In this document: positions 8,132 to 32,827 of the stretch, piece by piece
Layout of the letters: the number at the start of each line of letters is the position of its first letter
Position numbering within the stretch: the first letter of the stretch is position 1
Notes under the pieces: generated by a model
What the model was told of the DNA's origin: nothing
Database searches by the model: none
What the model saw: only the letters and a program-made list of their open reading frames with translations
NCBI GenBank assembly: GCA_009829735.1
Contig: CM020619.1
Span: 10,654,375 to 10,718,374, forward strand
Source of the DNA: Pyropia yezoensis
Taxonomy: Eukaryota > Rhodophyta > Bangiophyceae > Bangiales > Bangiaceae
Direction: 5' to 3'
DNA length: 64,000 bases
Translations under genes and position numbers: made by a program

Positions 8132-10522
8132 TCACGCTGTTTTCCCGTGGCGGGCGAGGAGCCACGCCAGCTCCGCCGCCTGCCGCCGCCACGAGAGAAA
8201 GCGGTCCGACGGGTTAAAGTGGCCGCCCTCGAGGTCGACGCGCAGCACCACGTCGGCGCCCCCCCCCGTCTGGTGGGCGGCCCGCAAACGGGCGGCCATC
8301 TTGGCCGCCTCCCAATACCCCACACGCGGGTCATTCAGGCCAGCGGTGAGGAGGACGGGTGGGTAGGCGGTGCCCGGCCGCACGTTGGTCACGGGCGCGT
8401 ACGCCGCGATCGTCTCGTAGCCGTCCTGGGTGTTGGGGTTGCCCCACTCGCCCCACTCCCCGGTGGTCAACGGGATGCTCGGGTCGGCCATGGTCACAAG
8501 AGCGTCCACAAACGGGACGACCAGCATGGCGCCAGCGCCGGCTAGGTCGGGGGCCATTGTCAGCACCGCCCCCACCAGCAGACCCCCTGCCGAAGCGCCC
8601 TCCATGCTGAGGTTTGCGGGCGTTGTGACGTTTCGGGCCACCAGCGCCCGGCCCACGGCAATGAAGTCGGAAAAGGTGACGTTCTTGGAGTCCAGCCGCG
8701 CGGCCTCGTACCACGTCCAGCCCATTTCACCACCCCCCCGCACGTGCGCAATGACGTCCACGAGGCCTCGGTCCAGCAGGGGCAGCCGACTGGAGGAGAA
8801 CGACGGTTCGACGGAAATTCCATAGCTGCCGTAGCCGTACATGTGGCACGCCTGGGGCTTCCCGGCCGCCGCGCGCAGGTCCGTGCGGTAGACAACGGAG
8901 ACGGGGATGGTCGCGCCATCGGCCGCCTCCACTTCCCACCGCTCGCTGGCGTAGAGGCTGCGGTTGTAGCCAGGCACGGGCTGCTCCTTGAGCAGCGTCC
9001 GGTTGTGCAGCACGCCGTCGTACGCCCACGTTTCGGTGGGCGTCGTCATGGACGTGTAGCTCAGGTGAAAGGCGCGCGACTCGTAGGCGCCCGCGCCAAG
9101 CCTCACCGTGGCGGCTTCCTCGGGGAAGGCCAGCTCCACCGCCGACGACAGATTGAGGGCCCGGCTGGGGCCTTCTGCATACGCCACGACAGACAGACGG
9201 GTGTAGCCGCCCCGCCTAGCCGACAGCACCGCAAAGCGCTCAAAGGGCGTCACGCCAGTGATGGCGACCGACTCGTTGTACGGTGCCGCGTCGGTCCAGT
9301 TGGCCGGGCCAGGGGCGCCCACCGTAGCGACAGCCAGTTTGAAATTGGCCGCCCCGCCCGCGTTGGTGACCACCACCAGGTCATCACCCCCCGTATGCGA
9401 GACCGAGTAGAGCAACCCCAGGGTGCGTGGAGCCACCAGCTTCGGCCCCGGTGGCGTGGTGCCCGCCGCCCGTGCCGCGGCGTCCGCCTGCAGGTCTAGG
9501 AGAGACTGCTCGGTCGAGTTCGAACTTCCAGAGGCGAGGATAAGGAATCGACCCGACCGAGAGATGGAAAAGCCCGCCGCGTACTCCCTGTCGTCCTCTG
9601 TGAGCAGCAGCTCATCCACAGCAGGCGCGGGGGAGGAAGAAGGCTCCCCGCGAGCACTGAGCGTCCGTCGCCACACCTTGTCGGGCCGCTGGGTGGCGTC
9701 GGCGGTGGTGTAGAAGAGGGTCCGATTGTCCAGGCCCCACTGGATAGAGCCGCCGCCCATGCGGGGCACCACGTCCTCGGGGCGCTCCTCCCCCGTCTCG
9801 ATCATCCGCACGCGCCCCTCATACACCTCTGCCCCCGTCGTGTCCACAGCGTAGGTCACGAGGGTGTGGTCCGGGGATACGTTCACGCCCCGAACGTTAA
9901 AGTAGGGAGCGTCGCCCGCAAGGGCGGTCACGTTGAGGAACACCTCCTCTGGCCCTAGCTCCCCCTCTGTCCACGTCACCTGCCCATTGTCAGGCACGGT
10001 GACGCCGCCCACCTTGCCGTCAACGTCCCGGCCGAGGATGCGGCGCCGCACGAACAGCGGGTACGACGCTCCCTCAACCGACCGCGAGTAGTAGATGTAC
10101 CCCCCAGAGCGGGCCGGCAACGACGCGTCCGCCTGCTGCACAGCAGAGACCAGCTCGTCAAAGATCGTCTCCGCTAAGCCCTCTTCCCCGGCGCCGCTGC
10201 AGTTGGCATACGCATTCTCCGCGGCCAGGTGGGCTAGCACATCGCTGTCGTTGCGCGCATCGTCACGGAGCCAGTAAAGGTCATCGCGTACGACGAGGGG
10301 GGGGTCCATGGCGCCCGCGCCGCGGTCCTCCCCGGGGACCACACCGAAAGTCACATTGTGGAGGCGCAGCTCCGCCACGGGCGGCACGCACTGCTGCGCC
10401 GCGGCGCCGCACGCGGCGGCGACAGCAGCGGCGGCGAGCAGGGCGGCGGTGGCAGCGACGGCCTTGACGACCGTCGCCACCCGTCGGGGGCGCCCCGTGG
10501 GGAAGGGCGCCACGCCCGCCAT
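8132..10522 (-). CDS. Secreted prolyl oligopeptidase family (S9A, oligopeptidase B-like) serine peptidase
   Basis: 796 residues, single exon, ATG at 10520-10522. Residues about 16-45 form an Ala/Val-rich hydrophobic segment after basic residues, a signal peptide or anchor. The seven-bladed beta-propeller covers roughly 60-520 and the alpha/beta-hydrolase domain the rest. The catalytic triad is visible: Ser644 in EGASAGGLLVG, Asp731 in GLNDPRVGYWE and His768 in LEGGHFN. NPNT and YWEAAKM around these are typical of oligopeptidase B rather than prolyl oligopeptidase. It should cut short peptides after basic residues. Many NxS/T sites (NVT, NRT, NYS-like) fit the secretory route. Most family members are cytosolic, so the leader is unusual. 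Next gene upstream is a same-strand Myb-like gene about 1.1 kb away. Confidence 0.9.
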   Translation of the reverse strand: MAGVAPFPTGRPRRVATVVKAVAATAALLAAAAVAAACGAAAQQCVPPVAELRLHNVTFGVVPGEDRGAGAMDPPLVVRDDLYWLRDDARNDSDVLAHLAAENAYANCSGAGEEGLAETIFDELVSAVQQADASLPARSGGYIYYSRSVEGASYPLFVRRRILGRDVDGKVGGVTVPDNGQVTWTEGELGPEEVFLNVTALAGDAPYFNVRGVNVSPDHTLVTYAVDTTGAEVYEGRVRMIETGEERPEDVVPRMGGGSIQWGLDNRTLFYTTADATQRPDKVWRRTLSARGEPSSSPAPAVDELLLTEDDREYAAGFSISRSGRFLILASGSSNSTEQSLLDLQADAAARAAGTTPPGPKLVAPRTLGLLYSVSHTGGDDLVVVTNAGGAANFKLAVATVGAPGPANWTDAAPYNESVAITGVTPFERFAVLSARRGGYTRLSVVAYAEGPSRALNLSSAVELAFPEEAATVRLGAGAYESRAFHLSYTSMTTPTETWAYDGVLHNRTLLKEQPVPGYNRSLYASERWEVEAADGATIPVSVVYRTDLRAAAGKPQACHMYGYGSYGISVEPSFSSSRLPLLDRGLVDVIAHVRGGGEMGWTWYEAARLDSKNVTFSDFIAVGRALVARNVTTPANLSMEGASAGGLLVGAVLTMAPDLAGAGAMLVVPFVDALVTMADPSIPLTTGEWGEWGNPNTQDGYETIAAYAPVTNVRPGTAYPPVLLTAGLNDPRVGYWEAAKMAARLRAAHQTGGGADVVLRVDLEGGHFNPSDRFLSWRRQAAELAWLLARHGKTA

Positions 10523-14231: not shown

Positions 14232-14842
14232 CCCGCGGGCCCGCGGGGCCCGCGGGTGGACGCGCCGCCGCCTGCGGTGACCGGTCGCCGGCGGGACCCC
14301 CGCCGTCCACGACTCGTGCCGCCACTCCGGCGGGGGAGGTGCGGGTGGGAGGGAGCCGGGGCGGCGATTCGACGTGCCCGCCGCAGCTGCGGTGCCTGGC
14401 CCCGTCTTAGGTGTTGAAAGTGTACTGTACCGAATATGCAATGTTGTTTGCCCACAGGATAAGCGGTGTTTGGCATACAGTTCAGTACGCCTGGGTGGTG
14501 CAGCCAGGCCCGTGGCTAGGCTCGGCGCCCACAGCCGTCCGTTTGGTGGGGTAAGGCGGGGGTTGGCTACGCTCCGTGGCCTGTTTCCTCTTCGTGGACG
14601 CTCCGCCCACCAGCGCCATCGGGACGCCGCGGTTCCGCCTGCTCACGTCGCTTCCATTGCCATCACCTGTGCGTTCCTATGCGCCCCGCCTCTCCCTGAC
14701 TGCCCTCCCCCCCGACCCCCTTTCGCCCCTCCCCACTTCTTCGCCCTCTTTGTCTCTGCCCCCCTTGCCTACTCCTCCCTCTTCCATTCGTCCTCCTCCT
14801 TTCCCCTCTTTCCCACCCCCCCCGACCCGCACGCCGGGCGCC

Positions 14843-16479
14843 ATGGGGACGACGGCGGCGGCACCCCCGACGGCGGACGCGGCGACGCTCCCCCCCCCCC
14901 CAGCGGTCCCCCCCCCCTCGGCGACGGCGGCGGCGGCCGGCGGACCCCCCCCACGGCGCCCACTGCCGCAGACGGGACGCTGCTCGTCCCCCCTGGCGGC
15001 TACGACGTTATTGTTGTGGGCGCGGGGGTGGCGGGCGCGCCGCTGGCGGCGGTGCTCGCCGCCGACGGCCGGCGGGTGCTGCTGCTGGAGCGGGACCTGG
15101 CAGAGCCCGACCGGATTGTGGGGGAGCTCCTCCAGCCGGGGGGGGTCGCGTCGCTGCGGGCGCTCGGCCTGTGCGCCGCCGTGGAGGGCATTGACGCACA
15201 GGTCATCCGGGGGTACGGCATGTTTCTGGGCGACAAGCGGATGTGCGTCAAGTACGTGGCACCGGGAGGCACAGGGGCGGCGGCAGCGACGGCGGCTGGG
15301 GGCGCTGCGGCTGGCAAGGGGGGGGACGGCACCCCGGCGCCCCCATCCCCCGACGCCCAGGCGGCTGGTCGCAGCTTCCACAATGGCCGCTTTGTGCGGC
15401 GGCTGCGGGAGCTGGCCGCCGCCACCCCCGGGGTGGCCCTCGCGCAGGGCACCGTCCTGTCGCTCGTCGAGGACCCCGCTACCGGCACCGTCACGGGGGT
15501 GCGGTTCCGGGACGGCGGCCCCGGTTCCGCCGTCCAGACCGCCACCGCGGCGCTGACGATTGCGTGCGACGGGTGCTTCTCGCGCCTCCGCGCGGCGGCG
15601 GTGCCCCCGCCGCCCGGCGCGGGGCCGCCCCCCATTGAGGTGGCCTCCCGCTTCGTGGGCCTCCTCCTCCGGGCCGGGAGCCTCCCCTACCCCGCCCACG
15701 GCCACGTTGTCCTCGCCGACCCGTCGCCCGTCCTCTTTTACCCCGTCTCATCGACGACGGTGCGGTGTCTGGTCGACCTGCCCCCGTCGCTGCCCGCCAC
15801 CACCGACCTCCGCTCCCACATGCTGGGCGTCATTGCGCCGCAGCTGCCCGACGGCCTGCGGGAGCCGTTTGAGGCGGCCGTCGCGGCGGGCGGCTGGCGC
15901 AGCATGCCAAACCGCACAATGGTGGCGCCCCCATCGGCGCGGCCCGGGGCACTCCTCCTGGGCGACGCGTTCAACATGCGCCACCCGCTGACGGGTGGCG
16001 GAATGACCGTGGCGCTCGCCGACGTGGGGCTTCTCCGGTCTGCCCTGGCGGGCGTCCCCGACCTGACCGACACGGCCGCGGTGGCGGCCGCGCTGGACGG
16101 CGTCACCGCCGCGCGCAAGCCCCTGTCGTCCACCATCAACATCCTGGCCAACGCGCTGTACGCGGTCTTTTCACCGGGCCCTGCGGCGAGCCGCCGCCAC
16201 ATGCGCGACGCGTGCTTTGACTACCTCGCCCGGGGGGGGCGCTGCGCGACCGACCCGGTGGCGATGCTGGGTGGCCTGCGGCCGGCGCCGTACCTGCTCA
16301 TTGGCCACTTTTTCGGCGTGGCCGTGTATGGGTGTGGCCGGGAGGTGATGGTGGGGGGGGGGGTGGCCGCCGCGTGGCGCCTCTTCCGGGACGCGTTTAA
16401 TATTGTCAAGCCCCTCATTGACGGGGAGGGTGTGACGGCTGTGCGGTGGATCCCGCTTGCGCGGCTTGGGGGGGCGTAG
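14843..16479 (+). CDS. SQE: Squalene epoxidase (squalene monooxygenase), start in a different frame
   Basis: FAD-dependent enzyme that turns squalene into 2,3-oxidosqualene, first oxygen step of sterol synthesis, on the ER membrane. Visible in order: dinucleotide fold VIVVGAGVAGAPLA (from about 15010) ending LLLERD, the family motif GELLQPGG, the DG motif IACDGCFSRLR, and the second FAD motif LLLGDAFNMRHPLTGGGM (from about 15952), then a hydrophobic C-terminal region. The catalytic part is intact to the stop at 16479. The good start ATG (14843, GCCATGG) is one frame off the catalytic frame; a one-base change in the C-run near 14890-14902, or a 5' intron, would join them. Without this the frame can be followed upstream to 14374 but reads like untranslated sequence. 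An Ala/Gly-rich insert of about 35 residues follows KYVAPGG. Confidence 0.88.
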
Positions 16480-19120: not shown

Positions 19121-21307
19121 TCACACCGTATACAGCTCCGTTTTGCGATCACCCTGCGCGGCCGCCTCGGCGGCAGCGGCGGCGGCGGTGGCGGCGGGCC
19201 GGCGCGGGCGCCCTCCGCCCCCCGGGCCTCCCCCCTCGTCCTCCCCCCCTCCCTCCCCCCCGCCAACCCCCCCGGGGGCGGCCTCCCCCGCCGCGGCCGC
19301 GCGGGCGATCGCCAGCTCCCGCTCCGCCGCCGCTGCGGCGGAGCGCACGTCGGCGGTCGCCACCACCGCCCCCCGCACATACCGCCCCGCGTTGGTGTCG
19401 GCCTGCCCCAGCACATACCGGTAGTTGACCATGACGCCGTGGCTCTCTGCCTCCCGAGCGGCGCTGGCGTCGGCGCCCACATTGACGCGCGCCACCGTCG
19501 CGCCGTTGCGGAGGTGAAAGTGGGCGACCGCGTCGAGCGCGCCGCCGCGGCGCTTGGCGTGGAGGAGGTACCGCGCGGCGTGGCGGTGGAGGTAAGCCGC
19601 GCGGCGGCGGTTGCCCTCGGCCGGCGGGGGGGTCGGCAGCGACCGCAGGTACGCGGCAAAGCCGGGCATGGGCGACAGCGTCACAACCTGGCGGATGGCG
19701 CTCTTGACGGCCAGCCAGGTGCCCGCGGGGCCGAGGACGCCCAGCTCCTCCGCCACCACCCGCCGAATGACATCGCCGCCCAGCTCCATGCCCGCCAGGC
19801 CCGCCTCGCACCCGACCAGCGAGTAAAACGCGAGCGTGTCGAGCAGCTTGTGCGCGTCGCCGCCCGCCGACGGGGCCTGCTCGGCAAACACGTCCGTGAC
19901 AGTGGTGGGCATCTTGGAACAGTAGGCCACCTCGACAAATACCAGTGGCACCCCATCCATGCCCGCGTGCATCAGCGCGTAGGCACGAATGCGCGGGTGC
20001 TGAAGGCGGGTGTAGAGGCCCTCCATCCCCGACGTGACGGGCTGCGGGGAGGACGCTGCCGACACGGCGGCGAGGCGCTGGATCAGCGCCGCGGGCGACG
20101 CGGGCGTCACGGCCGTCAGGGAGAGGCTGCCCGCCGACAGCCACATCCGCAGAGCGGCGGTGACTTCGGTGCAAAAGGCGCGGAGCGGGGGGGTGAGCGC
20201 GTCACGGGGCGCAGACAGGATGTCTGCGCGGAGGGTGATGAGGAAGGCCAGCCCGCCCGGCGCCGACACCAACCGCGTCAGCAGCGTCGTGTACGAGGGG
20301 GACAGCGCAATCCGCGCCGCCCGCTCGGCGTTGCGCACCCGCTCACGAAGGATGCTGGCCTGGGCGGCGGTTACGGGCGGGTGGGGGGCGGATGCTGATG
20401 CTGCCGCCCCTGCCGACCCGTCGTCGCCCGTCGCAATCGCGCCCGCCCGTTCCGCCTCGTCAAGCGCCCCGAGCAGGCGGGTCGTCGCACGGCGCACATC
20501 CACCGGCACGGGGCGGAGGTCCTCGGCGACGACCGACAGCAACCGCAGCCGATCTTCAACGGGCAGGAGTTTGTATCCAGCAATCACATCTGCGACGAGG
20601 CGCGCCGAGAGGGCGTCGTCGGGGATGCGCCCGCGGGAGGCGGTGGCCGACGAGGGCGGCTGCGTCGATGTCGGCGACGACGACGCTGCCGAGACGCGGC
20701 GCAGCAACGCGCGCACGCGGGCGGTGACCTGATCATGGTGTGGGGCCGCCGCCGCCCCCTTCGAGGAAGGAGAGGCGGCGGCGGACCCGGCACCGGCTCC
20801 GGAAGGGGGGGCGGCGCCCTCCTGGACGCCGCCGCCGCCGCTGCCACTGCCAACAATAGGCGCCACCGCTGCGAGGGCGGCGGCGGCAGCCGGCGACAAC
20901 GGCACCGACGCCGGCGGCAGCGGCGACCATGGCGCCGCCGCCGACGACGACGAAGGCGACGGCGGCGACGACGGCGTGAACGGCGGCACCGGCGCCGGCG
21001 GCGCCTCTACCACGTCTGGCGCGAGGACGGGCGGCACGGGAGGCGGCGGCGGCGGCGGGACGGCGGCGAGGAGCTCCGCCGCGACCGGTGGCACGGGCGG
21101 CGGCGACGCGGCCACGGCAGCGGCGGCACGCTCGGTGGCGCGCTGCCAGTAGCCGCCGAGGAGGCGGGCGCGCCAGTCGCCACCGGGTGCCGGCGGGGGG
21201 GGCGGCGGCGACGTTGGCGGAGGCGGGGGAGGCGTCGGGGGGGGAGGGCTGGCGGTCGATGATGTTAGCAGCCGCCGCAAAGGGAGGGTGCCGGCTGCCC
21301 GCCGCAT
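19121..21307 (-). CDS. MLYCD: Malonyl-CoA decarboxylase, probably mitochondrial
   Basis: 728 residues from the ATG at 21305-21307; the frame runs open upstream but this start gives a classic mitochondrial leader (MRRAAGTLPLRRLLTSS). Residues about 25-260 are Pro/Ala/Gly-rich and probably disordered, longer than in animal enzymes. The catalytic part follows: GYKLLPVEDRLRLL and related helices, then the GNAT-like half with FYSLVGCEAGLAGMELG (Ser496, matching the catalytic Ser), TLSPMPGF, HFHLRNGATVARVN (His598, matching the catalytic His) and VMVNYRY. The enzyme releases CO2 from malonyl-CoA to give acetyl-CoA, controlling malonyl-CoA levels and fatty-acid oxidation. No C-terminal SKL is present, so no PTS1 peroxisomal signal is seen. 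Divergent from the large fusion gene. Confidence 0.9.
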   Translation of the reverse strand: MRRAAGTLPLRRLLTSSTASPPPPTPPPPPPTSPPPPPPAPGGDWRARLLGGYWQRATERAAAAVAASPPPVPPVAAELLAAVPPPPPPPVPPVLAPDVVEAPPAPVPPFTPSSPPSPSSSSAAAPWSPLPPASVPLSPAAAAALAAVAPIVGSGSGGGGVQEGAAPPSGAGAGSAAASPSSKGAAAAPHHDQVTARVRALLRRVSAASSSPTSTQPPSSATASRGRIPDDALSARLVADVIAGYKLLPVEDRLRLLSVVAEDLRPVPVDVRRATTRLLGALDEAERAGAIATGDDGSAGAAASASAPHPPVTAAQASILRERVRNAERAARIALSPSYTTLLTRLVSAPGGLAFLITLRADILSAPRDALTPPLRAFCTEVTAALRMWLSAGSLSLTAVTPASPAALIQRLAAVSAASSPQPVTSGMEGLYTRLQHPRIRAYALMHAGMDGVPLVFVEVAYCSKMPTTVTDVFAEQAPSAGGDAHKLLDTLAFYSLVGCEAGLAGMELGGDVIRRVVAEELGVLGPAGTWLAVKSAIRQVVTLSPMPGFAAYLRSLPTPPPAEGNRRRAAYLHRHAARYLLHAKRRGGALDAVAHFHLRNGATVARVNVGADASAAREAESHGVMVNYRYVLGQADTNAGRYVRGAVVATADVRSAAAAAERELAIARAAAAGEAAPGGVGGGEGGGEDEGGGPGGGGRPRRPAATAAAAAAEAAAQGDRKTELYTV

Positions 21308-22311
21308 CGTGGGTGGGCGGGTGCGCCCACGGCCAAACAGAGGGAGGGGAGGGGATGGTCGGGGACGGAGACAAAGGGAGGGGAGGCGGGGGCCCCAGGA
21401 GGGGGAGACAGCAGGAGGGGGCGACGACGGCGCCGCGGCACTTGCACTTGGCCCGCTTCGCCCGCGTCGAGAGGGGAGCGCGCCCCGGCGCGGCCGCGCC
21501 AGGTGTAGAGCCTTGGATAGGCCACGCGCAGCTGCCAGCTGGCGCGGCAGCCACCACCTGGTGCAGCGGGCGCGGGCCACGCCGCGGCCACCTTCGTCTG
21601 TGCCCGTGGGGAGGTGGGGGGGGGGAGGTGCGCCGCGTGGCGTGCAGAGAGCTGCCGCCGCGGGTTGGCGACGGTGTCCTCGTTGACGACGAGACCCCGT
21701 CTGGGGAGTGGGTCCGGGGGGTTGGGGAGGGGAAGCGGGTTGGCCGCGCGCTGAACTCGCAGTCGCTGCGGTTGGGTAATGGATATGGGATGCGCACGCG
21801 ATGTGAGGTCGGGGCGTGGCGACCAGACGACTAGAATTTGACGGTGCGTGGGAGTTGGACCAGCAGCCACGATCCACCGGCCGGCCACGTGGCTTGTACT
21901 CCGTTCATGCGTACTGTACTGTACAGTACTTACGAGAACGGGGGAGGCAACCGCCTCTCCCCGTCGGAGGGACCTCTCCCCATCGCTGGGCACTGCACGT
22001 GGCCCCTCTCCGCGAGGCACGTCCATCGCCCACGCCTGCCCGTCTGGGACGTCGCCCGCCCGCTGTGCCTGCCCCGCCGGTCTGCTGTGCTCGCCGGCCG
22101 CCCTGCTCGGCATCCTCCCTTCATTTTTCTTTTTTGGTCGCACGGCGCGGGGTTGGGGATCTGTCCCGGCGTCGGCGTCTGCAGTGCGGCCCCGGCCCCG
22201 CCCGCCGCCCGTCCCCGCCCGCCTCCGCCCGCGCCGGCCGGCCTGCCTGCGGCTCTGCCCGTTTTGCCCACCGCTGCCTGCAGTGGCCCGCCGCCCGGCC
22301 ACTGCCTGGCC
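21308..22311. promoter_or_regulatory. Shared divergent promoter region of the decarboxylase and fusion genes
   Basis: One kb between two head-to-head starts. Contains the densest copy of the GTACTGTAC motif: GTACTGTAC at 21911-21919 overlapping a perfect 14-bp palindrome GTACTGTACAGTAC at 21916-21929. No TATA box is obvious. A bidirectional promoter is inferred. Confidence 0.45.
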
Positions 22312-25300
22312 ATGGACGGCGAGGCGACAGCGGCGGACTGGGCGGGCCCTCCGCCCACCGGCGCCGTCCCGCCAGCGCCGTCTGCCGGCAGCGGTTGGGG
22401 CTCTGGCTCTCGCGGCACGGCTCCCCCGATGGCGGCGGGGGCAGGACTGGCAGAGGCGACAGTAACGGCCGATGCAGCGGCGACGGTGGCGGCGGCGGCG
22501 GCGGTGACGGCGAGGGCCACGGCCACGGCCGCCCGCCCAGCCACTTCAGCGAAAGGAGCAGAGGTGGTGGCGGCTGCGCCCCGCGAGGCGGACGGGGCGC
22601 CCCCCCTGGCCACGCCACCGGCGGCAGGAGCTGCCAAGGGCGGATCCACGGGCGACACGACGGCGCCGGCGCGCAAGCAGCGGCCGGCGGAGAATGTGGT
22701 AATCCTACCGTCGGGGCTCGACTCGGGGGATATCGTCCTCTTCAACCGCCGCTGCCTGTCCATGCCCCCGTACGGCGCGGCGATCTGTGGGGTGGCCAAA
22801 CTCTTTTCCAACAGCTCCTGGGACCACGTGGGCATTGTGGTCCGCCGCCCCGCGTCGGCGACGGCGCCCGACGGGGCGGCGGTGGGGGAGGAGGAGGAGG
22901 AGCTCCTCTTTCTCGAGGCCGACCTGGGAGGCGTCAAGCTCCGCTCCCTCCGCGAGCGGCTCGCCCGCTCCAAGTCGAATGAGATTGCCATCCGCCGCCT
23001 GTCGGCGGTGCGCACGGACGAGATGCGGGAAAAACTCTATTCATTTGCACAAGACATGCTGGGCACCCCGTACGAGACGGGCACGGGGCAGCTCATCTCT
23101 TCCATCATTGACCCACAGGCCAAGCAGGAACGCGAGCGCCTCCACGCGCTGCTGTTGGATAAGCGGGTGCAGCTCAGCGAGATTGACCGGGAGCTATCCG
23201 AGGCGGCACTCACCGCTTTTCAGCGGCGGACTCTGGAGAAGGAACGGGCACGGGTGGACGCGACCCGGCGGGCTATCCACGACCGGCTGGCGGCGGAGCT
23301 GTCCTCGTCGGCAGACGGGTACTTTGAGTCCAAGGACGACCTGTCGCGGGTGTTTTGTTCCGGGCTGGTCGCGGCGGCCTACCAGCGGGCGGGGCTACTG
23401 GAGTCGTATCCGCCCGCGGCGGGGTACTCGCCAAAGGACTTTTCTTCAGAGCAAACCAACCCCCCTGGCGTGTACCTGCTGCGGGGAGCTCGCCTCAGCG
23501 ACGAGGTGTACGTGCGGCGGACGCCCAAGAAGCGGACCGCCGATGGGGACGTCGCCGAGGACGCTGACGCGGCTGCGCCTGTCGTACCAGCACCCCGTGT
23601 GGGTGGCGTCACGACCGGCGACGTGCCGTCCCGGTCGTCGCGGCTGGTGATTAGCAGTGCGATCAAACGCACACCGATTGACAGTGTGCTGTCGGACCAG
23701 TACAAGCGGTCGGGCTTTGTGCGCGCGTTCCGGGCAGTGGTTGTAGAGCCGGGTGATCTGGTCTTTCAGCAGGGCTCGTATGGAGACTCGCTGTACGTGG
23801 TCGAGTCTGGCTCTCTGGACCGGTTTGTAGCTAAGGGGTCTGGGGACCCTAAGCTGGTGTCGACACTTGGGCCGGGCAACACGTTTGGCACAACCGCCGT
23901 CATGTTCAACAGCCCCCGCATGTCGACCCTGCGCGCAAAAGAGCGGTGCCTGCTGTGGGCAGTCTCCCGCCCCACGTTGGAGCGCATCAAGGACACGACA
24001 GACAATGTCCAGGATATTCTCTCGACGGTCGACACGCGACGGCTCCGGACGTTGCTTCGGGACCACTTTCTCTTCAAGCGCCTTGACCGGCTCGGGCCCC
24101 AGGAGCTCAACCACTTCTTCCTTGTCAAGTTTCGTGCTGGGGAGGAGGTGTTTAAGCAGGGTGACCCCGGGGACAACTTTTACATCATCAAGAGCGGTGA
24201 GCTCGAGCGCCACATCCGTCACCCAAGGCCAGGCCGAGGGTCCCGACTCGCGGGGGGGGTGGCGGGTAAGGGCGGTATTGGCGATACCGGTCGCGGGCTG
24301 CTGTCACGCGACGGGCGAAGCCTTGATGATGATGAGGACGATGAGGAGGAGGACGACGAGGAGGATGAGCAGCAGGATGGCTCCAAGGTGGGAGGCGCTG
24401 GGGACCGCAGCGGTGGCAAAGGCGGTGGGGGCAGTGGAGGCGGTGACGGGGCCGCTCGTGGCCGCCGCAAGGGCCGTCAACCAAAGCGGCGGCGCAGCTC
24501 TCTGGTCGACGATGACGATAGCGACTCGGGCGGTGCGTTTGGAACTGGCTGGGCGGAAAAGGAGTACCGGACCCTGTCGCTCACGCTTGGTCCTGGTCAG
24601 TCGTTTGGGGAGCTGTCCCTGATGTACAACGCACCCCGTGCGGCGACCGTTCGGGCGCGAACAGACGTGGAGTGCTGGGCCATCAGTGCCGAGTCGTTCC
24701 ACCGGCTTCACTTGGGCGGCGGTGCCAACTACCTACGCTCTGTTTTCAAGACATCGGCGAGCGTCACCCGCGACGGCCAGTCGTACATGACGCCCGCAGA
24801 CGTACTCTCGTTTGCCAATGTGGACGCGCTGCCGGCGGCTGACCGGGAGCGCCTGTCGTCGTTGTTGCTCGCGCTGGTGTCCTGCCATCGGGACCGGTCG
24901 CGGGACGATTCGATCGACGAGGCTGCCTTGGCGGCTGGCAGCGGCGGCAGCGGCATCGGCGGTAAGCGTCGCCGCCGCGCCCGTCGCTCGGATGCGGGGC
25001 TGGTAGACTTTTGGGAGTTTGTGCGGTTTGACATTGTGCTCAACCAGCCCGCTGCAGAGCTGGACTTTGCCTTTCGGCTGGCGGACAAGAACAACTCGGG
25101 CTTTGTGGACCTCGAAGAGATCCAGTCCCTGCTTGCCGAGTACGCGCCCGTGGACGAGCAGGCGCGGCAGCTGCTGTCGGGCCCGTCCCCCGCGCTCGTG
25201 CGGGTGTTTGGCCCCGACGGCACACGGGTGCTATCGTACAAGGAGTTTTGTGCGGTCGGCGATGACTTTCTGCCGCCCACCTTTCGCCGCGACATCCGCA

Positions 25301-26703
25301 CACTGGCTCGCCATCTGTTGCACGACACGTCCGCAGAGACGCCCGCCGGGGGGGCGCCCACGGGAGAGGTGTTTGAGCCGGCGTCGGCGTCACTCGCCGC
25401 CGACGCGGCGCTGACGGCGTCGTCGTCGCCCAAGGTACGGATGGAGTTTAGCCACCTGTTTGCGGTGGCCGTGTCGGGCGCGCTTGCCCGGACGGCGGTG
25501 GCGCCGTTGGACCGCCTGAAAATCCTTCGGCAGGTCACCCCGCCGTCGACATCGCCGCGGTGGCTTCGACGTCAGGCGGCGACGGCGGCGGCGTCCAACG
25601 GCGGCAGTGCCGCCGCCACGGCCGCGCGGCCAGCCGGCACGTGGGTTGGCCTCAAGGGGGTGGTGGACATGGTGCGCCGTGACGGCGGGGGCGTCCGCGC
25701 CCTCTTTCGTGGCAACGGCGCCAACGTCATCCGCATTGTGCCCGCAACGGCGGTGCAGCTGGCGGGTGTCGAGTACCTACGCACCCACCCGCTGGCGGGG
25801 GAGCTGGCGTCCGCGACGGGCGGCCGCGTGGGGCAAGCTGCCCCGTGGGAGACGGTGGTCATCCTGGGGGGGCTGGCGGGCATGGCCGCCGCGGCGGTCA
25901 CCTATCCGCTCGACGTCATCCGCGGGCGGCTGAGCGTGCAGTCGGCAGCGTCGTTTGCGGCGGCGGCGGCGGCTGTGCCCGCGGTGGTGCCGCCCGCCGC
26001 CGCCGCCGCCTCCACGACCGCCGGTGGCAGCGCGGCTGCCACGGTGGCGACGGCGACGGCGGCGGCGACGGCGGCGGCGGGCGCTACCGCCAGGCGGGCG
26101 AGTGCAACCTCCCCCCTTCCCTCCCCCGCACCCCCCCCACCGTACCGGGGCATCATCCACGGCCTCTCCACTGCCGTCCGCACGGAAGGGGTGGGGGTCT
26201 TGACTCGTGGCCTCCTGCCCACCCTCCTTGGTGTGTTCCCGTACGTGGGGATCAGCTTTGGCATCTACGAGGTGGTACGCCCCGCCCTCCCCCGCCGCAA
26301 CGACGGGAGTGGCCGCCCGACGGCCGGGTCGGCCATTGTGGCGGGCGCGCTCGCGTCGGCAACGGGCCAGCTGGCGGCCTTCCCCCTCGACACGTGCCGC
26401 CGGCGGATGCAGGTGGCGGGCTGGGCGGGCGTTGGCGGCGCGCCCATTGGCGGTGCCGGCGGCGACGCGCCCGCGCGGCTCGGCTTGACCGCCACGGTGC
26501 GGCAGGTGCTGCGCGACGGGGGCGTGCGGGCGCTCTTCCGGGGGCTGGTACCCAACCTGATCAAGGTCGTCCCGGCGTCGGCGGTGAGCTTTTTCGCCTA
26601 CGAGCACGCGCGTGCCGTGTGGCTGACCGTGCAGGCCACGGCGGGGGGGGGGGCGGGGGGGGGGGGGAGGGACGGCCGCGACGCTGTTCGCCGGAGCGTG
26701 TAG
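22312..26703 (+). CDS. Fusion: papain-like amidase, two cNMP-binding domains, EF-hands, mitochondrial carrier
   Basis: 1463 residues in one exon from the ATG at 22312 (GGCCATGGAC). Domains: (1) residues about 130-370, a YiiX/permuted NlpC-P60-like amidase with SGDIVLF, SSWDHVGIVV (His172), Glu202 and VFCSGLVAAAY (Cys349), broken by a charged coiled-coil-like segment; (2) cNMP-binding domain, about 455-565, with Thr527 in place of the usual Glu and Arg536 kept; (3) a second cNMP domain, about 590-800, with a canonical cassette FGELSLMYNAPRAATV (Glu767, Arg776); (4) an aralar/citrin-like EF-hand block with a canonical loop DKNNSGFVDLEE (925-936); (5) a three-repeat mitochondrial carrier from about 1045 with PLDRLK (1065), PLDVIR (1199) and PLDTCR (1358). 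It resembles Ca-regulated SCaMC/aspartate-glutamate carriers with extra second-messenger and peptidase-fold parts. Substrate is unknown; mitochondrial inner membrane is inferred. Confidence 0.9.
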   Translation: MDGEATAADWAGPPPTGAVPPAPSAGSGWGSGSRGTAPPMAAGAGLAEATVTADAAATVAAAAAVTARATATAARPATSAKGAEVVAAAPREADGAPPLATPPAAGAAKGGSTGDTTAPARKQRPAENVVILPSGLDSGDIVLFNRRCLSMPPYGAAICGVAKLFSNSSWDHVGIVVRRPASATAPDGAAVGEEEEELLFLEADLGGVKLRSLRERLARSKSNEIAIRRLSAVRTDEMREKLYSFAQDMLGTPYETGTGQLISSIIDPQAKQERERLHALLLDKRVQLSEIDRELSEAALTAFQRRTLEKERARVDATRRAIHDRLAAELSSSADGYFESKDDLSRVFCSGLVAAAYQRAGLLESYPPAAGYSPKDFSSEQTNPPGVYLLRGARLSDEVYVRRTPKKRTADGDVAEDADAAAPVVPAPRVGGVTTGDVPSRSSRLVISSAIKRTPIDSVLSDQYKRSGFVRAFRAVVVEPGDLVFQQGSYGDSLYVVESGSLDRFVAKGSGDPKLVSTLGPGNTFGTTAVMFNSPRMSTLRAKERCLLWAVSRPTLERIKDTTDNVQDILSTVDTRRLRTLLRDHFLFKRLDRLGPQELNHFFLVKFRAGEEVFKQGDPGDNFYIIKSGELERHIRHPRPGRGSRLAGGVAGKGGIGDTGRGLLSRDGRSLDDDEDDEEEDDEEDEQQDGSKVGGAGDRSGGKGGGGSGGGDGAARGRRKGRQPKRRRSSLVDDDDSDSGGAFGTGWAEKEYRTLSLTLGPGQSFGELSLMYNAPRAATVRARTDVECWAISAESFHRLHLGGGANYLRSVFKTSASVTRDGQSYMTPADVLSFANVDALPAADRERLSSLLLALVSCHRDRSRDDSIDEAALAAGSGGSGIGGKRRRRARRSDAGLVDFWEFVRFDIVLNQPAAELDFAFRLADKNNSGFVDLEEIQSLLAEYAPVDEQARQLLSGPSPALVRVFGPDGTRVLSYKEFCAVGDDFLPPTFRRDIRTLARHLLHDTSAETPAGGAPTGEVFEPASASLAADAALTASSSPKVRMEFSHLFAVAVSGALARTAVAPLDRLKILRQVTPPSTSPRWLRRQAATAAASNGGSAAATAARPAGTWVGLKGVVDMVRRDGGGVRALFRGNGANVIRIVPATAVQLAGVEYLRTHPLAGELASATGGRVGQAAPWETVVILGGLAGMAAAAVTYPLDVIRGRLSVQSAASFAAAAAAVPAVVPPAAAAASTTAGGSAAATVATATAAATAAAGATARRASATSPLPSPAPPPPYRGIIHGLSTAVRTEGVGVLTRGLLPTLLGVFPYVGISFGIYEVVRPALPRRNDGSGRPTAGSAIVAGALASATGQLAAFPLDTCRRRMQVAGWAGVGGAPIGGAGGDAPARLGLTATVRQVLRDGGVRALFRGLVPNLIKVVPASAVSFFAYEHARAVWLTVQATAGGGAGGGGRDGRDAVRRSV

Positions 26704-28251: not shown

Positions 28252-30469
28252 GGTGGTGATGGTGTGCTTTGGGCCTCGGGGGGGGTGGTTGAACAAAAGA
28301 ACGTGTTGGGGTGAGGGGGGGGAAAGACAGAGGGGGGGAGGGGAGGGGGGGAAGGGGGGGGGAAGTAGGGGGGGGGGGGGGACGGGCGGGAACGTCGGGG
28401 AGGGGGGGTGACGGGACGCGTGGGTGGTTGGGCGGGGACGGGTGGGGGGGGTGGGCCGTGGGTCCACCGCGCCCAAGGGCGGCGAGGGGGATCACGCCGA
28501 CAAGGGAGTGGCGTGCGGGTGACCAGGCCAGGCGGCGCCGCGCCGCGAGCCGCCAGCCACCAACGGCAGCGGCGCCCCGCCGCCCACCGCTCGCGTGCCG
28601 ACGGTCGGTAGCGGGCGGCGTCGCGCCCCGCGGCGCCGCCTCCCGTCCTCCCCCTCCCCGCCGCCCTCCCCCTCCCCCCCCCATTTTGTGTTTCGATGGC
28701 ACCCCCCTCTACTGCCACCGCCCATGCTGTGGCATCGCCGCCTTCCTTGACACGCCCTCCGACCCCTACGGCCATGTCCATGAGCGTCCAGACCGTCCTG
28801 ATGTCACGGCAGCGGACTACCCAATGCGGGGGGAGCTGTCCGAATGGTTATGGAGGCGGCTCCGCTTGCGCTGGCGGTGGGCATGGCGGTCGGGCTGTCT
28901 GGGCGGCCGGCGGCCCCTCGACGGCCCCAACCCCCGCCGCCCTCTGACCGGGGGGAAGAGCCCCCCACAGAGACGGCGGTGACGACTGCCGACTCGAAGC
29001 CGCCGGCACCTCGTGGGGAGGGACGACGGCGTGCCGTGGGCCCACCATGCGCCCGGCGCGGGCGAGCGGGGTGGCCCTCGCTACTCCCAAGGGGGGGGGG
29101 CGGGCGGGGCTGACGGGTGAGGCGCTGGTGTGGCGCTGGCCCCTCTGCTGACAGAAACACCGCCGTGGGGGGGTGGCGCCTCCTGCGCGGCGGCGCCCGC
29201 CCGCGTCGGGGGGATGGCCCCCGTTCTTGCACCCGCACCGGCCTGGCGTGTCCCCCCTCAAGTACGTTTGGCCCGGCAGCAGGGTGCACCCACCGCCCAG
29301 CGGCAACCCCCGCCGCGCAGCGGATTAGGTGCGCTGGTCAGGTTAGCTGCCGCTGCTCTCCACGACAGTGGGGGGGAGGGGAGGGGGAGAGGCGCGCCGG
29401 CCTTGGCCCCACCCCTTGCCCTGGAGGGCTCCCACGGTGGTGACTGGGCGTGGGCGGGATCCCGCAGCGCCCTCATTCGTGACGCCCAAGGCCGGCAACG
29501 CTGCCCTCCACAACCTCTGGCGATGGTGCGCGTCCCTCGCCCCCCCCCCCCCACCGTTGATGGCGCTCGCTTGGACTGGCCTCAGATGGAGCTTCATGCC
29601 TGCTCCATTGATAGCGTCTATCTTGTCTCGCCACTTGGTGACCCTTGTGGGGGTGCTATTCTCCCAAATCAACGGGCATGAGGAACATCTCCGTCGGGAC
29701 CACACGGACGCCAGTACTTCCGTCTGGCGTGGGGGCGCCCGCACTTGGAAGAATAAAGAAGCCACACACCTGTGACTGTGCAGCACAGAGACCGTGGGCA
29801 ACGAGGAGCCGCGCTGGTCAGCAAGCCACCCGCCCGCGCTATACGCCGCAGCAGCCAATAGGCGACCTGCCATCATTCTACAAGATGCCTGGAGAAGGAC
29901 ACCTCCCGAGCGAGGCCCCTATCCTGGGCGCAGCGGGACACCGCCCCCGTGGGGGCGGGTGGCGTGGGGGGTCTTGTCGCCAGCAGCGACAGCCGGGATC
30001 GATCATGGCCGCAGTAGGGATCGATCATCCCCGCTGGGATGGTGCGCGCCATGCTTTTGGCCTCCTCTCCGCTGGAGGCGACGCAGGGGGTGCAGGGTCC
30101 GCCGGGAGCACATCCCTCCCCCCCACGGGGATAAGGGGGAGTCGGGCGAGGGAGGCAACGTCGCGCCCGCCACCCCCCCCCCTTGTCTCTGAGAGATCTG
30201 TAGCGCGCGGGCCCGCGCCGCGGGGGCAGTGGCGAGCCACCACCGCCCGCGGGGCACCCCACCCCAGCCAACGGCGACGCAGCGCGCCGCGCCCCACCCC
30301 TGCCCCTCCCCGCTCCGCCCGCCCCCCCCTCGGCCAGAGGTCGCAGCCGGCCTGCCCAGCGGCGTCGGCCTTGACGGCACCTGCCGCCCCCCCCCCCCCC
30401 CCACTCTCTCGGCTTGCCGTGGAGCCCAAACGCATCCTGCCCCCTCTGGCCGCGCAGCCCCCCGCGAAG
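28252..30469. other. Divergent 2.2-kb gap, GC-rich, no gene I can support
   Basis: Lies between head-to-head HEAT-like and beta-lactamase-like genes. Holds G-runs (28310-28420), a possible short ORF (plus 28844-29113, with a hydrophobic start but no other support) and a minus-strand frame near 29560-29760 with folded-looking composition (KWRDKIDAINGAGMKLHL). AATAAA occurs at about 29754. None is convincing. Confidence 0.35.
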
Positions 30470-32827
30470 ATGGCGCCTGCCGGCACCGCGGCGCGGCCGC
30501 CACGGGTGCTGCGACGCGTGGCGGCAGCGGCTGCCGCCGTCGCCGTCGCCGCCGTCGCCGCCGCCGCCGCCGCAGCCGCCGCCGCCGCCACCACCGCCAC
30601 CGTCGCCGGTGCCAGCGCGTCGCTGCCGAGCGCGGCACCCGCAGGCGGCAGCGCCCGCTTCCTGGCCGCCATTGACGCGGCAGCGGCGGCGACGGCGGCG
30701 GCGGGCCCCCCCCGCGGCGGCGGCCACCCCTTCCTCGACGCCCTTGCCGCCGCGTGCCGGCGTGCGGTGGCCGCGCCCCTTCGCGGCGCGCCGCCGGGAG
30801 GGGCTGCCGCCGCCGCGCCCGCCGCGGGCCGGCAGGCGGCGGCTGCCGCCGGCGATGGCCTTGCCCGCCGCATCGAGGAGCTGCTGGCCGAGCCGCTCGC
30901 CGCCACCGGCGGGGGCATCTCGTACGCCGTCGCGCGGGGGGGCGTCACGATCGCCGCGGGGGCCCTCGGGGAGGCGGACGTGGAGCTGGGGGTGCCCATG
31001 ACAGCGGCCAGCCGCACGGACCTGGCGTCCGTCACCAAGCAGTTCACGGCGTTCCTCCTCTTTTGGCTGGACCACCGCGGCGCCCTGAGCCTGGATGACG
31101 ACGTGCGGACGTACGTGCCCGAGCTGCCGCGGTACCCCGGCGCCACCGTCACGCTGCGCCACATCGTGCACCACGCCAGTGGCCTCCTGGACCATTTGGT
31201 CCCGCTCTACCTCTCGCTGGGCGGCGTCGAAGACAACCTCCCCCGGCCGTCGCTGCTCGCGACCATCTTCCGGCAGACCCGCCTGCGCTTCCAGCCCGGC
31301 ACGGCGTGGGAGTACAGCAACACCAATTACGAGCTGGCGGGGCTGGTGGCGGAGCGCGTCACCGGCAAGCCGCTGGCTCGCCTCTTTCGCGAAGTGATTT
31401 TTGACCCCCTGGGCATGAAGGACAGCGACCTGTACGACTCGCAGCTGCGCATGTACTCGGGACTTGCGTCGAGCTACGACGTGAACATCACCGAGGCCCC
31501 CGTGCCAGGCGGGCCATTCGCTGTGTCGCAGGTGCGGGCGCCCCGCCAGGCCGTTGGCATTGGTGCGACTGGCATCGTCACCACCCCGGCAGACCTGCTG
31601 CGGTGGGCGGACAACTACCGCAACAACACCCTCGGTGGGGGTCGGGGCCTTGTTGAGGCTATGCTAACGCCCTACGTGCTGCGTGCTGCCAATGGCACCG
31701 CCCTTCCAGGGGACTACACGGGCTCGGGGGGGTACGGTGGGGGCCTCTTCATCGAGGACGCCCCCATCAATGAAACCACCACCGTGAGGTTGATCCACCA
31801 CGGCGGCGCCATTGCGGGCTACCGCAGCATGTTTCTTCTGGTGCCCGACGAGGGTTTGGCCATTGTCCTTCAGGCCACCTCGTCGGTCTTCGGCAGCGAC
31901 ATCTTTCAGGCGGCCGGCAAGATCGCATTGCTGACCGCCCCTGATGCTCTAGGAGGCGGAGAGGACGGCAACTCGCCCGAGCCGACGGCCGTCAAAGACA
32001 CCCCAGACGCCACCGACGAGCCGATGGCCACCCCCTCTCCGGCTCCATCGGTCGCGGTATCGCGCAAGGCGCTGGCGGCGGCGGCGGGGGTGTGGGTGAT
32101 GGATGGGGTGCAGGGCGCCGCCGGAACGTTTGAGGTGCGTGTGCACTGCAAGGATGTTGCCACCACCGGCGGGAAGAAGAGGCAGGCTGAGGGCGACAGC
32201 AGTAGTGACGACGACGATGACCGGCGAGAGTCTGGTGCCGGGTGCCAGCTGTTTGTGGACCTCGGCTGGCTGAGCCGTTCGCTCCTGACACCCGTCTCGG
32301 CCACCCGCTTTGTGGGTGACCTCGCGGGACTTCCCGGCGCCCTGAGCATGGAGGTGTCCCCTCCTGCGAACAGTACCACCACCGCCGAGCTCTCCGTGAT
32401 GCTGCCCGACCAGTCGGGCACGGGCACGGCCGCGCCAGTGACCCAAACCGCGACGCGGTTGCCGGCCCTGCAGGTGGGTGCGGCGGCGCTCGCCGCCGCC
32501 GCCGGCACTTACACCTCGGACGAAGTTGGCGTCACATACACTTTTGTCCCTCGTGGGGGCGGCCTTGGCCTGGTGGTGGACGGCGAAGAGGGCCGCCTCG
32601 GCTCCACTCTCCTCCCCTGCTGCGTCGACGCGGCGGGGGACTGGGGGGGGACCTACACGAGCGCCCGCCCGGCGCTCGTTTCGCAAGCCGAACTGGGCGG
32701 GAGGCGCCCGTGGCTGACCATGACCTTTCGGGGGGACGCCGCCGCGCTGGATGCGGAGGACAATGCGGACGGGCGGGGGGACCTCGCGGGCGTGCCGTTT
32801 CGTCGGGAGGGGACGTGCCCTGCTTGA
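30470..32827 (+). CDS. Secreted serine beta-lactamase-like protein (class C/PBP fold)
   Basis: 785 residues from the ATG at 30470; the frame is open further upstream but this start is followed by a basic then Ala/Val-rich signal segment. The beta-lactamase/transpeptidase domain spans about 140-480 with all three active-site motifs: ASVTK (Ser187, Lys190), YSN (Tyr282, Asn284) and HHGG (444-446, in place of KTG). HGG in motif 3 points to the esterase/D-aminopeptidase/LACTB-like side of the family rather than true lactamases. The C-terminal 300 residues look like two beta-rich domains, with an acidic SSDDDDDR stretch near 580. Many such eukaryotic proteins act on peptides or esters; the substrate here is unknown. 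Head-to-head with the HEAT-like gene. Confidence 0.88.
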   Translation: MAPAGTAARPPRVLRRVAAAAAAVAVAAVAAAAAAAAAAATTATVAGASASLPSAAPAGGSARFLAAIDAAAAATAAAGPPRGGGHPFLDALAAACRRAVAAPLRGAPPGGAAAAAPAAGRQAAAAAGDGLARRIEELLAEPLAATGGGISYAVARGGVTIAAGALGEADVELGVPMTAASRTDLASVTKQFTAFLLFWLDHRGALSLDDDVRTYVPELPRYPGATVTLRHIVHHASGLLDHLVPLYLSLGGVEDNLPRPSLLATIFRQTRLRFQPGTAWEYSNTNYELAGLVAERVTGKPLARLFREVIFDPLGMKDSDLYDSQLRMYSGLASSYDVNITEAPVPGGPFAVSQVRAPRQAVGIGATGIVTTPADLLRWADNYRNNTLGGGRGLVEAMLTPYVLRAANGTALPGDYTGSGGYGGGLFIEDAPINETTTVRLIHHGGAIAGYRSMFLLVPDEGLAIVLQATSSVFGSDIFQAAGKIALLTAPDALGGGEDGNSPEPTAVKDTPDATDEPMATPSPAPSVAVSRKALAAAAGVWVMDGVQGAAGTFEVRVHCKDVATTGGKKRQAEGDSSSDDDDDRRESGAGCQLFVDLGWLSRSLLTPVSATRFVGDLAGLPGALSMEVSPPANSTTTAELSVMLPDQSGTGTAAPVTQTATRLPALQVGAAALAAAAGTYTSDEVGVTYTFVPRGGGLGLVVDGEEGRLGSTLLPCCVDAAGDWGGTYTSARPALVSQAELGGRRPWLTMTFRGDAAALDAEDNADGRGDLAGVPFRREGTCPA

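Follow-up and report, generated by a model that had tools for sequence, protein, structure and literature searches.

The locus and its product

The 64,000-nucleotide window analysed here, taken from contig CM020619.1 of the Pyropia yezoensis assembly GCA_009829735.1 (positions 10,654,375 to 10,718,374 of the forward strand), encodes on its forward strand a protein of 1463 residues (P0001) in which an enzyme domain of the permuted NlpC/P60 type, two cyclic-nucleotide-binding (CNB) domains, an EF-hand module and a mitochondrial carrier domain follow one another. The same arrangement is present in distantly related red algae, and for this reason the product looks like a genuine signalling protein that has drawn little attention, not like an accidental fusion. 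We read it, with confidence evenly balanced for and against, as a signal-integrating inner-membrane protein of red algae, in which cyclic-nucleotide and Ca2+ sensing would be coupled to a membrane-bound thiol acyl-enzyme and to adenylate transport.

The original prediction, made from the letters of the DNA, had described a single-exon fusion, and this description held: all 1463 codons are open without interruption, and the protein aligns with its relatives from about residue 130 to the end of the carrier with no break in the frame. So long a frame would arise by chance with a probability of about 4e-11, a rough figure that takes account of base composition only; homology is by far the stronger evidence for the gene. 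The start codon is unproven because the frame stays open upstream as far as 21838; the ATG at 22312 lies in the context gccATGg. The proposed order of domains was recovered by hidden Markov models as well, since Pfam places Peptidase_C92 (C92; residues 163-257, E 8e-11), cNMP_binding (E 1e-38), EF-hand_1 (residues 916-942, E 2e-7) and Mito_carr (E 2e-48) in this sequence along the protein, all four above their curated cut-offs, with three more EF-hand models matching below theirs. The amidase and cyclic-nucleotide domains, whose absence from such searches had been named as grounds for abandoning the fusion, were thus both detected. Coordinates are collected in Table 1.

Family and distribution

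The homology search covered 5.8 billion proteins with words taken from residues 130-1440; 7978 candidates, of 0.55-1.75 times the length of the query and sharing most words with it, were scored, and 53 proteins matched at E <= 1e-5. Among these, P0002 is the window gene itself (100% identity after rounding, over 84% of the query), P0003-P0053 are 51 further family members at 35-62% identity, and P0054 from Closterium sp., which has neither a C92 nor a cyclic-nucleotide domain, was not counted as a member. The C92, cyclic-nucleotide and carrier domains occur together in 50 of the 53 matches, one of the 53 being the window gene; the exceptions are P0054 and the models P0050 and P0052, which are without the carrier. 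Conservation counts given below refer to 52 aligned rows, three of them truncated, that comprise the window protein and P0003-P0053 and exclude P0002 (the same gene) and P0054 (a non-member).

Orthologs with the same domain order do exist in other red algae, and six full-length members carry species names: Cyanidioschyzon merolae (P0043), Cyanidiococcus yangmingshanensis, Galdieria partita, Porphyridium purpureum, Rhodosorus marinus and Gracilariopsis chorda. A taxonomy check places Cyanidioschyzon, Rhodosorus, Gracilariopsis and Porphyridium in the Rhodophyta, and we take Cyanidiococcus yangmingshanensis and Galdieria partita to be red algae too. The named relatives belong to Cyanidiales, Porphyridiales, Stylonematales and Gracilariales, which rules out a lineage-specific oddity; the red-algal distribution rests on these species-named members, and we do not claim that the family is confined to red algae. 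Fragments labelled Galph1 (P0175) and Rhodochaete pulchella (P0060) were matched as well. Some relatives bear database names that cover part of the protein, among them “mitochondrial calcium-dependent solute carrier” (P0043), “ADNT1” (P0044) and “CRP-like cAMP-binding protein” (P0010). P0008 and P0042, which have the same domains as the window protein, are labelled complete open reading frames (ORFs) from transcript sets, and these database labels suggest that orthologs are transcribed as one mRNA.

In a tree of 49 members over 1013 columns, rooted by choice on the divergent P0053 and drawn without support values, P0053 branches far outside, the window protein adjoins a large group that includes Gracilariopsis, and Galdieria joins the Cyanidioschyzon group, away from the remaining named algae, which is what vertical descent would produce. 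Among the 49 non-truncated members, mean pairwise identity is highest in the second CNB domain (CNB-B, 68.6%) and in C92 (64.7%); it falls to 58.9% in the first CNB domain (CNB-A) together with its lead-in, to 54.5% in the carrier and to 52.9% in the EF part, so that the enzyme and CNB-B appear as the most constrained modules.

That two or more genes have been read as one, through an error of assembly or gene model, we regard as barely credible. Run-on gene models do exist in the family, as in P0036 of Porphyridium, but the window frame is continuous, the three-domain set recurs in proteins from several sources, the transcript-set ORFs P0008 and P0042 among them, and the position of Galdieria in the tree fits vertical descent. 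An artefact of a long GC-rich ORF is likewise ruled out by the several sources that encode the same domain order.

As for individual members, P0053 keeps the enzyme set (with Asp for Glu) but carries Ala at the Glu position of CNB-B, and its carrier motif 1 contains Gln; P0176 is another divergent member. The P0036 model of Porphyridium purpureum, entered as “Uracil catabolism protein 4”, extends beyond the fusion protein to take in GTP-cyclohydrolase and DUF1688 domains and is probably a run-on of adjacent genes. The Closterium protein P0054, a model of 1520 residues, combines EF-hands and a mitochondrial carrier with a protein kinase domain and is possibly another signalling-carrier fusion or possibly a gene-model error.

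The permuted NlpC/P60 enzyme domain

The top two matches of the N-terminal domain in a PDB sequence search, both weak (E 0.098 and 0.15), were YiiX and Bacillus cereus 3kw0, and the fold of the predicted model matches the same YaeF/YiiX-type enzymes (BcPPNE, 3kw0; YiiX, 2if6) with 21-25% identity in structural alignments. The tetrad His172/Glu202/Tyr254/Cys349, in the permuted order, is kept in 52 of 52 rows, one of them with Asp for Glu; the set described for permuted NlpC/P60 enzymes is His, an acid, Tyr and Cys together with a hydrophobic pocket (PMC3142127). Fold and tetrad are therefore common to the window protein and the YaeF/YiiX-type enzymes, from which it differs in an extra helical hairpin, missing from 19 of 24 other aligned rows by eye, and in its fusion to sensors and a membrane carrier. 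The original prediction had listed His172, Glu202 and Cys349 among its hallmark residues, with an EF loop at 925-936, three carrier repeats and the cyclic-nucleotide cassettes; all of these are in place save for an incomplete cassette in CNB-A, and it had overlooked Tyr254.

It had also called the domain a YiiX-type cysteine amidase. Tetrad and fold agree with an active-looking enzyme of the YiiX type, although a peptide amidase is less likely than an enzyme directed at lipids or acyl groups. A fatty acid is bound in YiiX, for which cleavage of fatty-acyl amides was proposed (PMC3142127), phospholipase activity is described in another permuted NlpC/P60 protein (PMC12994826), and a permuted NlpC/P60 protein is implicated in lipoprotein N-acylation (PMC7387801). 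By analogy with these related enzymes, the predicted enzyme is more likely to act on acyl or lipid substrates than on peptides. A peptidoglycan-type amidase is disfavoured by the hydrophobic S1 pocket that PMC3142127 describes for permuted members.

These residues also bear on whether the carrier might be the sole output, that is, a Ca2+/cyclic-nucleotide-gated adenylate carrier in which the C92 domain would serve the regulator by binding a lipid or ligand, without catalysis. The known Ca2+-regulated carriers APC and AGC have N-terminal regulatory domains (PMC7611780), and the window protein has the EF module and a conserved helix ahead of its carrier. A non-catalytic domain would have no need, however, of four catalytic residues retained throughout the family, and we hold this explanation to be rather unlikely.

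A scan of bacterial and archaeal genomes for the C92 domain gave 13 loci (out of 112 pattern-matching stretches), all with bacterial titles and with best segments of 28-51% identity, and it shows bacterial relatives and not a donor. Cys349-Ser350 is followed in the window protein by Gly at residue 351 (23362-23364), where 45 of 52 members have Glu; P0177, a 93% identical relative, also has Gly there. In P0188 and P0194 a C92 enzyme and a C2 domain are found in one protein, another membrane-targeted arrangement.

Tandem cyclic-nucleotide-binding domains

Searched against PDB sequences, the middle part of the protein matches PKG and PKA regulatory subunits, and both CNB domains have the PKA-R/PKG type of fold according to Pfam and to a model of the ortholog P0003. 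Two CNB domains in tandem, with a PKA-type cassette in the second, are common to these proteins and ours. In CNB-B, Glu767 and Arg776 are both present in 51 of 52 rows, P0053 being the exception, whereas CNB-A keeps Arg536 in 52 of 52 and the Glu in none, Thr527 standing in its place in the window protein. The claim of complete cassettes thus survives for CNB-B and fails for CNB-A, and intact dual cyclic-nucleotide sensing is ruled out. We propose that CNB-A is a structural or allosteric partner rather than a canonical binding site. The cassette of the window protein, PRAATV, is one that we take to be of the cAMP type. The low-complexity insertion ahead of it is shorter in those relatives whose sequences were read.

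In view of this likeness, in sequence and in the model, the tandem could be a PKA regulatory subunit that holds a kinase at the mitochondrion, the other domains serving as a scaffold. Nonetheless, the first cassette differs from those of PKA-R and PKG in its missing Glu, Pfam finds no kinase domain in the window protein, and no conserved inhibitor sequence of the RRxS/A type was seen by eye before CNB-A, where no dedicated search was made; such a role is very improbable. A conserved KR-T/S-P-I stretch before CNB-A presumably lies at the position of the PKA-R N3A helices.

The EF-hand module and the connecting helix

The EF-hands had been called aralar-type, and as a sequence match this was confirmed, Aralar1 ranking first in PDB ahead of SCaMC-1 (E 4e-4). 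With aralar/citrin (SLC25A12/13) the module shares a YMTP-D stretch and a GL-V/I...EF segment. In the window protein the ligands at loop positions 1, 3, 5 and 12 and the Gly at 6 are all present in one canonical loop, the equivalent of aralar EF3; the loop equivalent to EF2, inspected by eye in the window protein, has no acidic residue at 1, 3 or 5. Aralar, in contrast, binds Ca2+ at EF2 only according to PMC7611780, and it has eight EF-hands against a module of about 200 residues in all. APC is described there with four Ca2+-binding EF-hands, while the window protein has its single canonical loop together with cyclic-nucleotide and C92 domains; gating of the APC type by four EF-hands therefore does not apply. 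No EF-hand structure was among the best 50 matches listed in either fold-search output for the 1145-residue model. The conserved helix between module and carrier is possibly amphipathic.

The mitochondrial carrier domain

The C-terminal part, which matches ADP/ATP carriers (the subject of PMC4375477) in the PDB sequence search, has the three P-x-[DE]-x-x-[KR] repeats of the SLC25 family (P1065, P1199, P1358) and, in the model of P0003, the carrier fold. A profile search with five carrier domains matched 1616 proteins at E <= 1e-10. In the best 120 of these 1616, many of them without a name, fragments of the window-protein family (P0055, P0057, P0060) are mixed with plant carriers at the top, and the printed names include 27 adenine-nucleotide transporters and 6 of SLC25A23/24/25/41. 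The nearest named standalone carriers within this set are ADNT1 and APC/SCaMC, at about 32-39% identity to the P0003 carrier domain over 92-98%, and on these listed names the domain is nearest to the adenine-nucleotide subgroup; no AGC name appears among the same best 120, in which names are shortened and many rows nameless. Judged by sequence, the protein looks like a combination of a carrier of one subgroup (ADNT1/SCaMC) and a sensor typical of the other (aralar). In APC, too, an AAC-like carrier is fused to an EF-hand module (PMC6283063), and ADNT1 exchanges AMP and ATP (PMC10216781). A CoA carrier similar to SLC25A42 is possible.

Contact points were assigned by aligning helices 2 and 4 with those of AAC3 and by what we take to be the AAC numbering. 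They fall on Arg1141 (50/50), Gly1307 (49/49), the variable residue 1308 and Lys1418 (48/50, the others one Ser and one Arg). According to PMC12410006, substrate classes are told apart at contact point II, and contact point III almost always carries a positive charge.

The carrier could also be a non-transporting inner-membrane anchor, with a cyclic-nucleotide/Ca2+-controlled lipase or acyltransferase as the only output. C92 and CNB-B are the most conserved modules, motif 2 has His instead of its basic residue in 4 of 50 rows, motif 1 contains Gln in P0053, and conservation is poor at the charges of the helix 2 cytoplasmic gate. Yet a mere anchor would not need motif 1 in 49 of 50 rows and motif 3 in 49 of 49, and the positive contact points (50/50 in helix 2; 49/50 in helix 6, Lys in 48 and Arg in 1) and the gates of helices 4 and 6 (acids in 48/49 rows each, bases in 42/49 and 47/50) are retained as well. 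We consider an output through the enzyme alone to be unlikely.

Table 1. Features of the gene and its product (positions in the window; residues of P0001)
Feature	Residues	Positions	Strand	Evidence or remark
Whole single-exon ORF, P0001	1463 residues	22312..26703	+	frame and homology to relatives
N-terminal low-complexity region	1-128	22312..22695	+	not conserved; start codon unproven
Permuted NlpC/P60 domain (Peptidase_C92, YaeF/YiiX-type)	130-400	22699..23511	+	
Catalytic His172	172	22825..22827	+	52/52; aligns with YiiX His
Catalytic acid Glu202	202	22915..22917	+	Glu 51/52, Asp 1/52; aligns with YiiX Glu
Tyr254, NlpC/P60 signature tyrosine	254	23071..23073	+	52/52; aligns with YiiX Tyr; role as given in PMC3142127
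Helical hairpin inserted in C92 domain	257-337	23080..23322	+	two long helices in model
Catalytic Cys349	349	23356..23358	+	52/52; aligns with YiiX Cys
CNB-A with N-terminal helices	447-572	23650..24027	+	phosphate-binding cassette Arg536 kept; Thr527 at ribose Glu position
CNB-B	573-806	24028..24729	+	complete PKA-type cassette FGELSLMYNAPRAATV (Glu767, Arg776)
Low-complexity acidic/Gly-rich insertion in CNB-B	640-750	24229..24561	+	ahead of cassette
Aralar-like EF-hand module	807-1004	24730..25323	+	best PDB sequence match Aralar1 4p5x/4p60, E 2e-6
Canonical EF loop (DKNNSGFVDLEE)	925-936	25084..25119	+	equivalent of aralar EF3 by alignment
Conserved helix between EF module and carrier	986-1003	25267..25320	+	hydrophobic moment 0.22-0.65, seven members
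Mitochondrial carrier domain	1042-1440	25435..26631	+	Ala/Gly-rich loops
Carrier motif 1, PLDRLK	1065-1070	25504..25521	+	49/50 ungapped rows
Carrier motif 2, PLDVIR	1199-1204	25906..25923	+	46/50 ungapped rows; His in 4
Carrier motif 3, PLDTCR	1358-1363	26383..26400	+	49/49 ungapped rows

Elsewhere in the window, a divergently oriented neighbour at 19121-21877 (-) encodes a malonyl-CoA decarboxylase (PF05292, E 2.5e-41) in a long frame with a low-complexity N-terminus. A squalene epoxidase (PF08491, E 8.5e-87) occupies a long single frame at 14374-16479 (+), a prolyl oligopeptidase (PF02897 and PF00326) lies at 8132-10522 (-), and a 1060-residue frame at 29645-32827 (+) contains a beta-lactamase-fold domain (PF00144).

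A possible integrator at the inner membrane

SLC25 carriers are as a rule proteins of the inner membrane whose N-terminal regulatory modules lie towards the intermembrane space. By this family topology, the carrier domain would lie in the mitochondrial inner membrane and move adenine nucleotides or a close relative, the candidates being AMP/ATP as in ADNT1, ATP-Mg/Pi or a CoA-like substrate, and everything N-terminal to it would face the intermembrane space and hence the cytosolic metabolite pool. CNB-B would bind a cyclic nucleotide, more likely cAMP, and the EF loop would read Ca2+. The permuted NlpC/P60 domain would work as a thiol acyl-enzyme, be it a phospholipase A, an acyltransferase or a fatty-acyl amidase, with membrane lipids or acylated proteins in its vicinity as substrates. 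Perhaps, ligand binding changes the packing of the regulatory modules and so releases the enzyme, the carrier or both. Ligand binding, catalysis, transport, localisation, topology and coupling are what we infer here; the domain order, the folds and the conservation of active site and cassette across red-algal lineages come directly from the computation.

Several observations weigh against this integrating role. Besides the Glu missing from CNB-A, residue 777, next to the Arg in CNB-B, varies among the 52 rows (Ala 26, Gly 13, Ser 12, Tyr 1), which weakens the choice of cAMP over cGMP. The canonical EF loop is found in 33 of 52 members by a strict and 43 of 52 by a lenient definition, and an EF-hand label from Pfam in 22 of the 52 proteins P0002-P0053, so that Ca2+ sensing may have been lost in several lineages. 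In the carrier, residue 1308, one of the contact points, is not constant (V 33, I 5, L 1, others 11; n=50), and the helix 2 cytoplasmic gate has D/E in 25/50 and K/R in 28/50 rows, with the consequence that transport by the usual mechanism is not assured. Finally, the full-length model has a predicted template modelling score (pTM) of 0.45, at which the placement of domains relative to one another is unreliable. The original prediction of a carrier gated by both Ca2+ and cyclic nucleotide goes further than the sequence shows, as the complete cassette is confined to CNB-B, there is one canonical EF loop, and Ca2+ gating of the aralar-type carrier is itself disputed in PMC12410006.

We would go one step beyond the integrating role with considerable doubt, and suggest a cyclic-nucleotide receptor in the mitochondrial membrane, through which cAMP and Ca2+ on the outer face of the inner membrane might directly switch both the remodelling of acyl lipids and the pool of adenylates that passes to and from the matrix. 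Such a receptor would carry second messages straight to mitochondrial function without kinases, and would date back to the last common ancestor of living red algae.

Significance for red algae and mitochondrial carriers

Every module of the protein is of a known kind, and it is therefore best filed among the Ca2+-regulated mitochondrial carriers as a variant rather than as a categorically new system. Among 5.39 million open-licence papers of PubMed Central we found none that joins a mitochondrial carrier with a cyclic nucleotide-binding domain, nor did any of the titles or abstract openings listed in broader searches describe this protein; a description elsewhere is possible. Two kinds of Ca2+-regulated mitochondrial carrier, APC and AGC, are named in PMC12410006 and PMC7611780; if the integrating role is true, a carrier with a thiol acyl-enzyme and cyclic-nucleotide sensors attached would represent a third design of regulation. 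The ortholog in Cyanidioschyzon merolae, a laboratory alga, brings the question within reach of a single-gene deletion. The fusion is found in red algae as distant as Cyanidiales and Florideophyceae, and, if our reading is true, cyclic-nucleotide signalling in these algae would gain a concrete receptor candidate.
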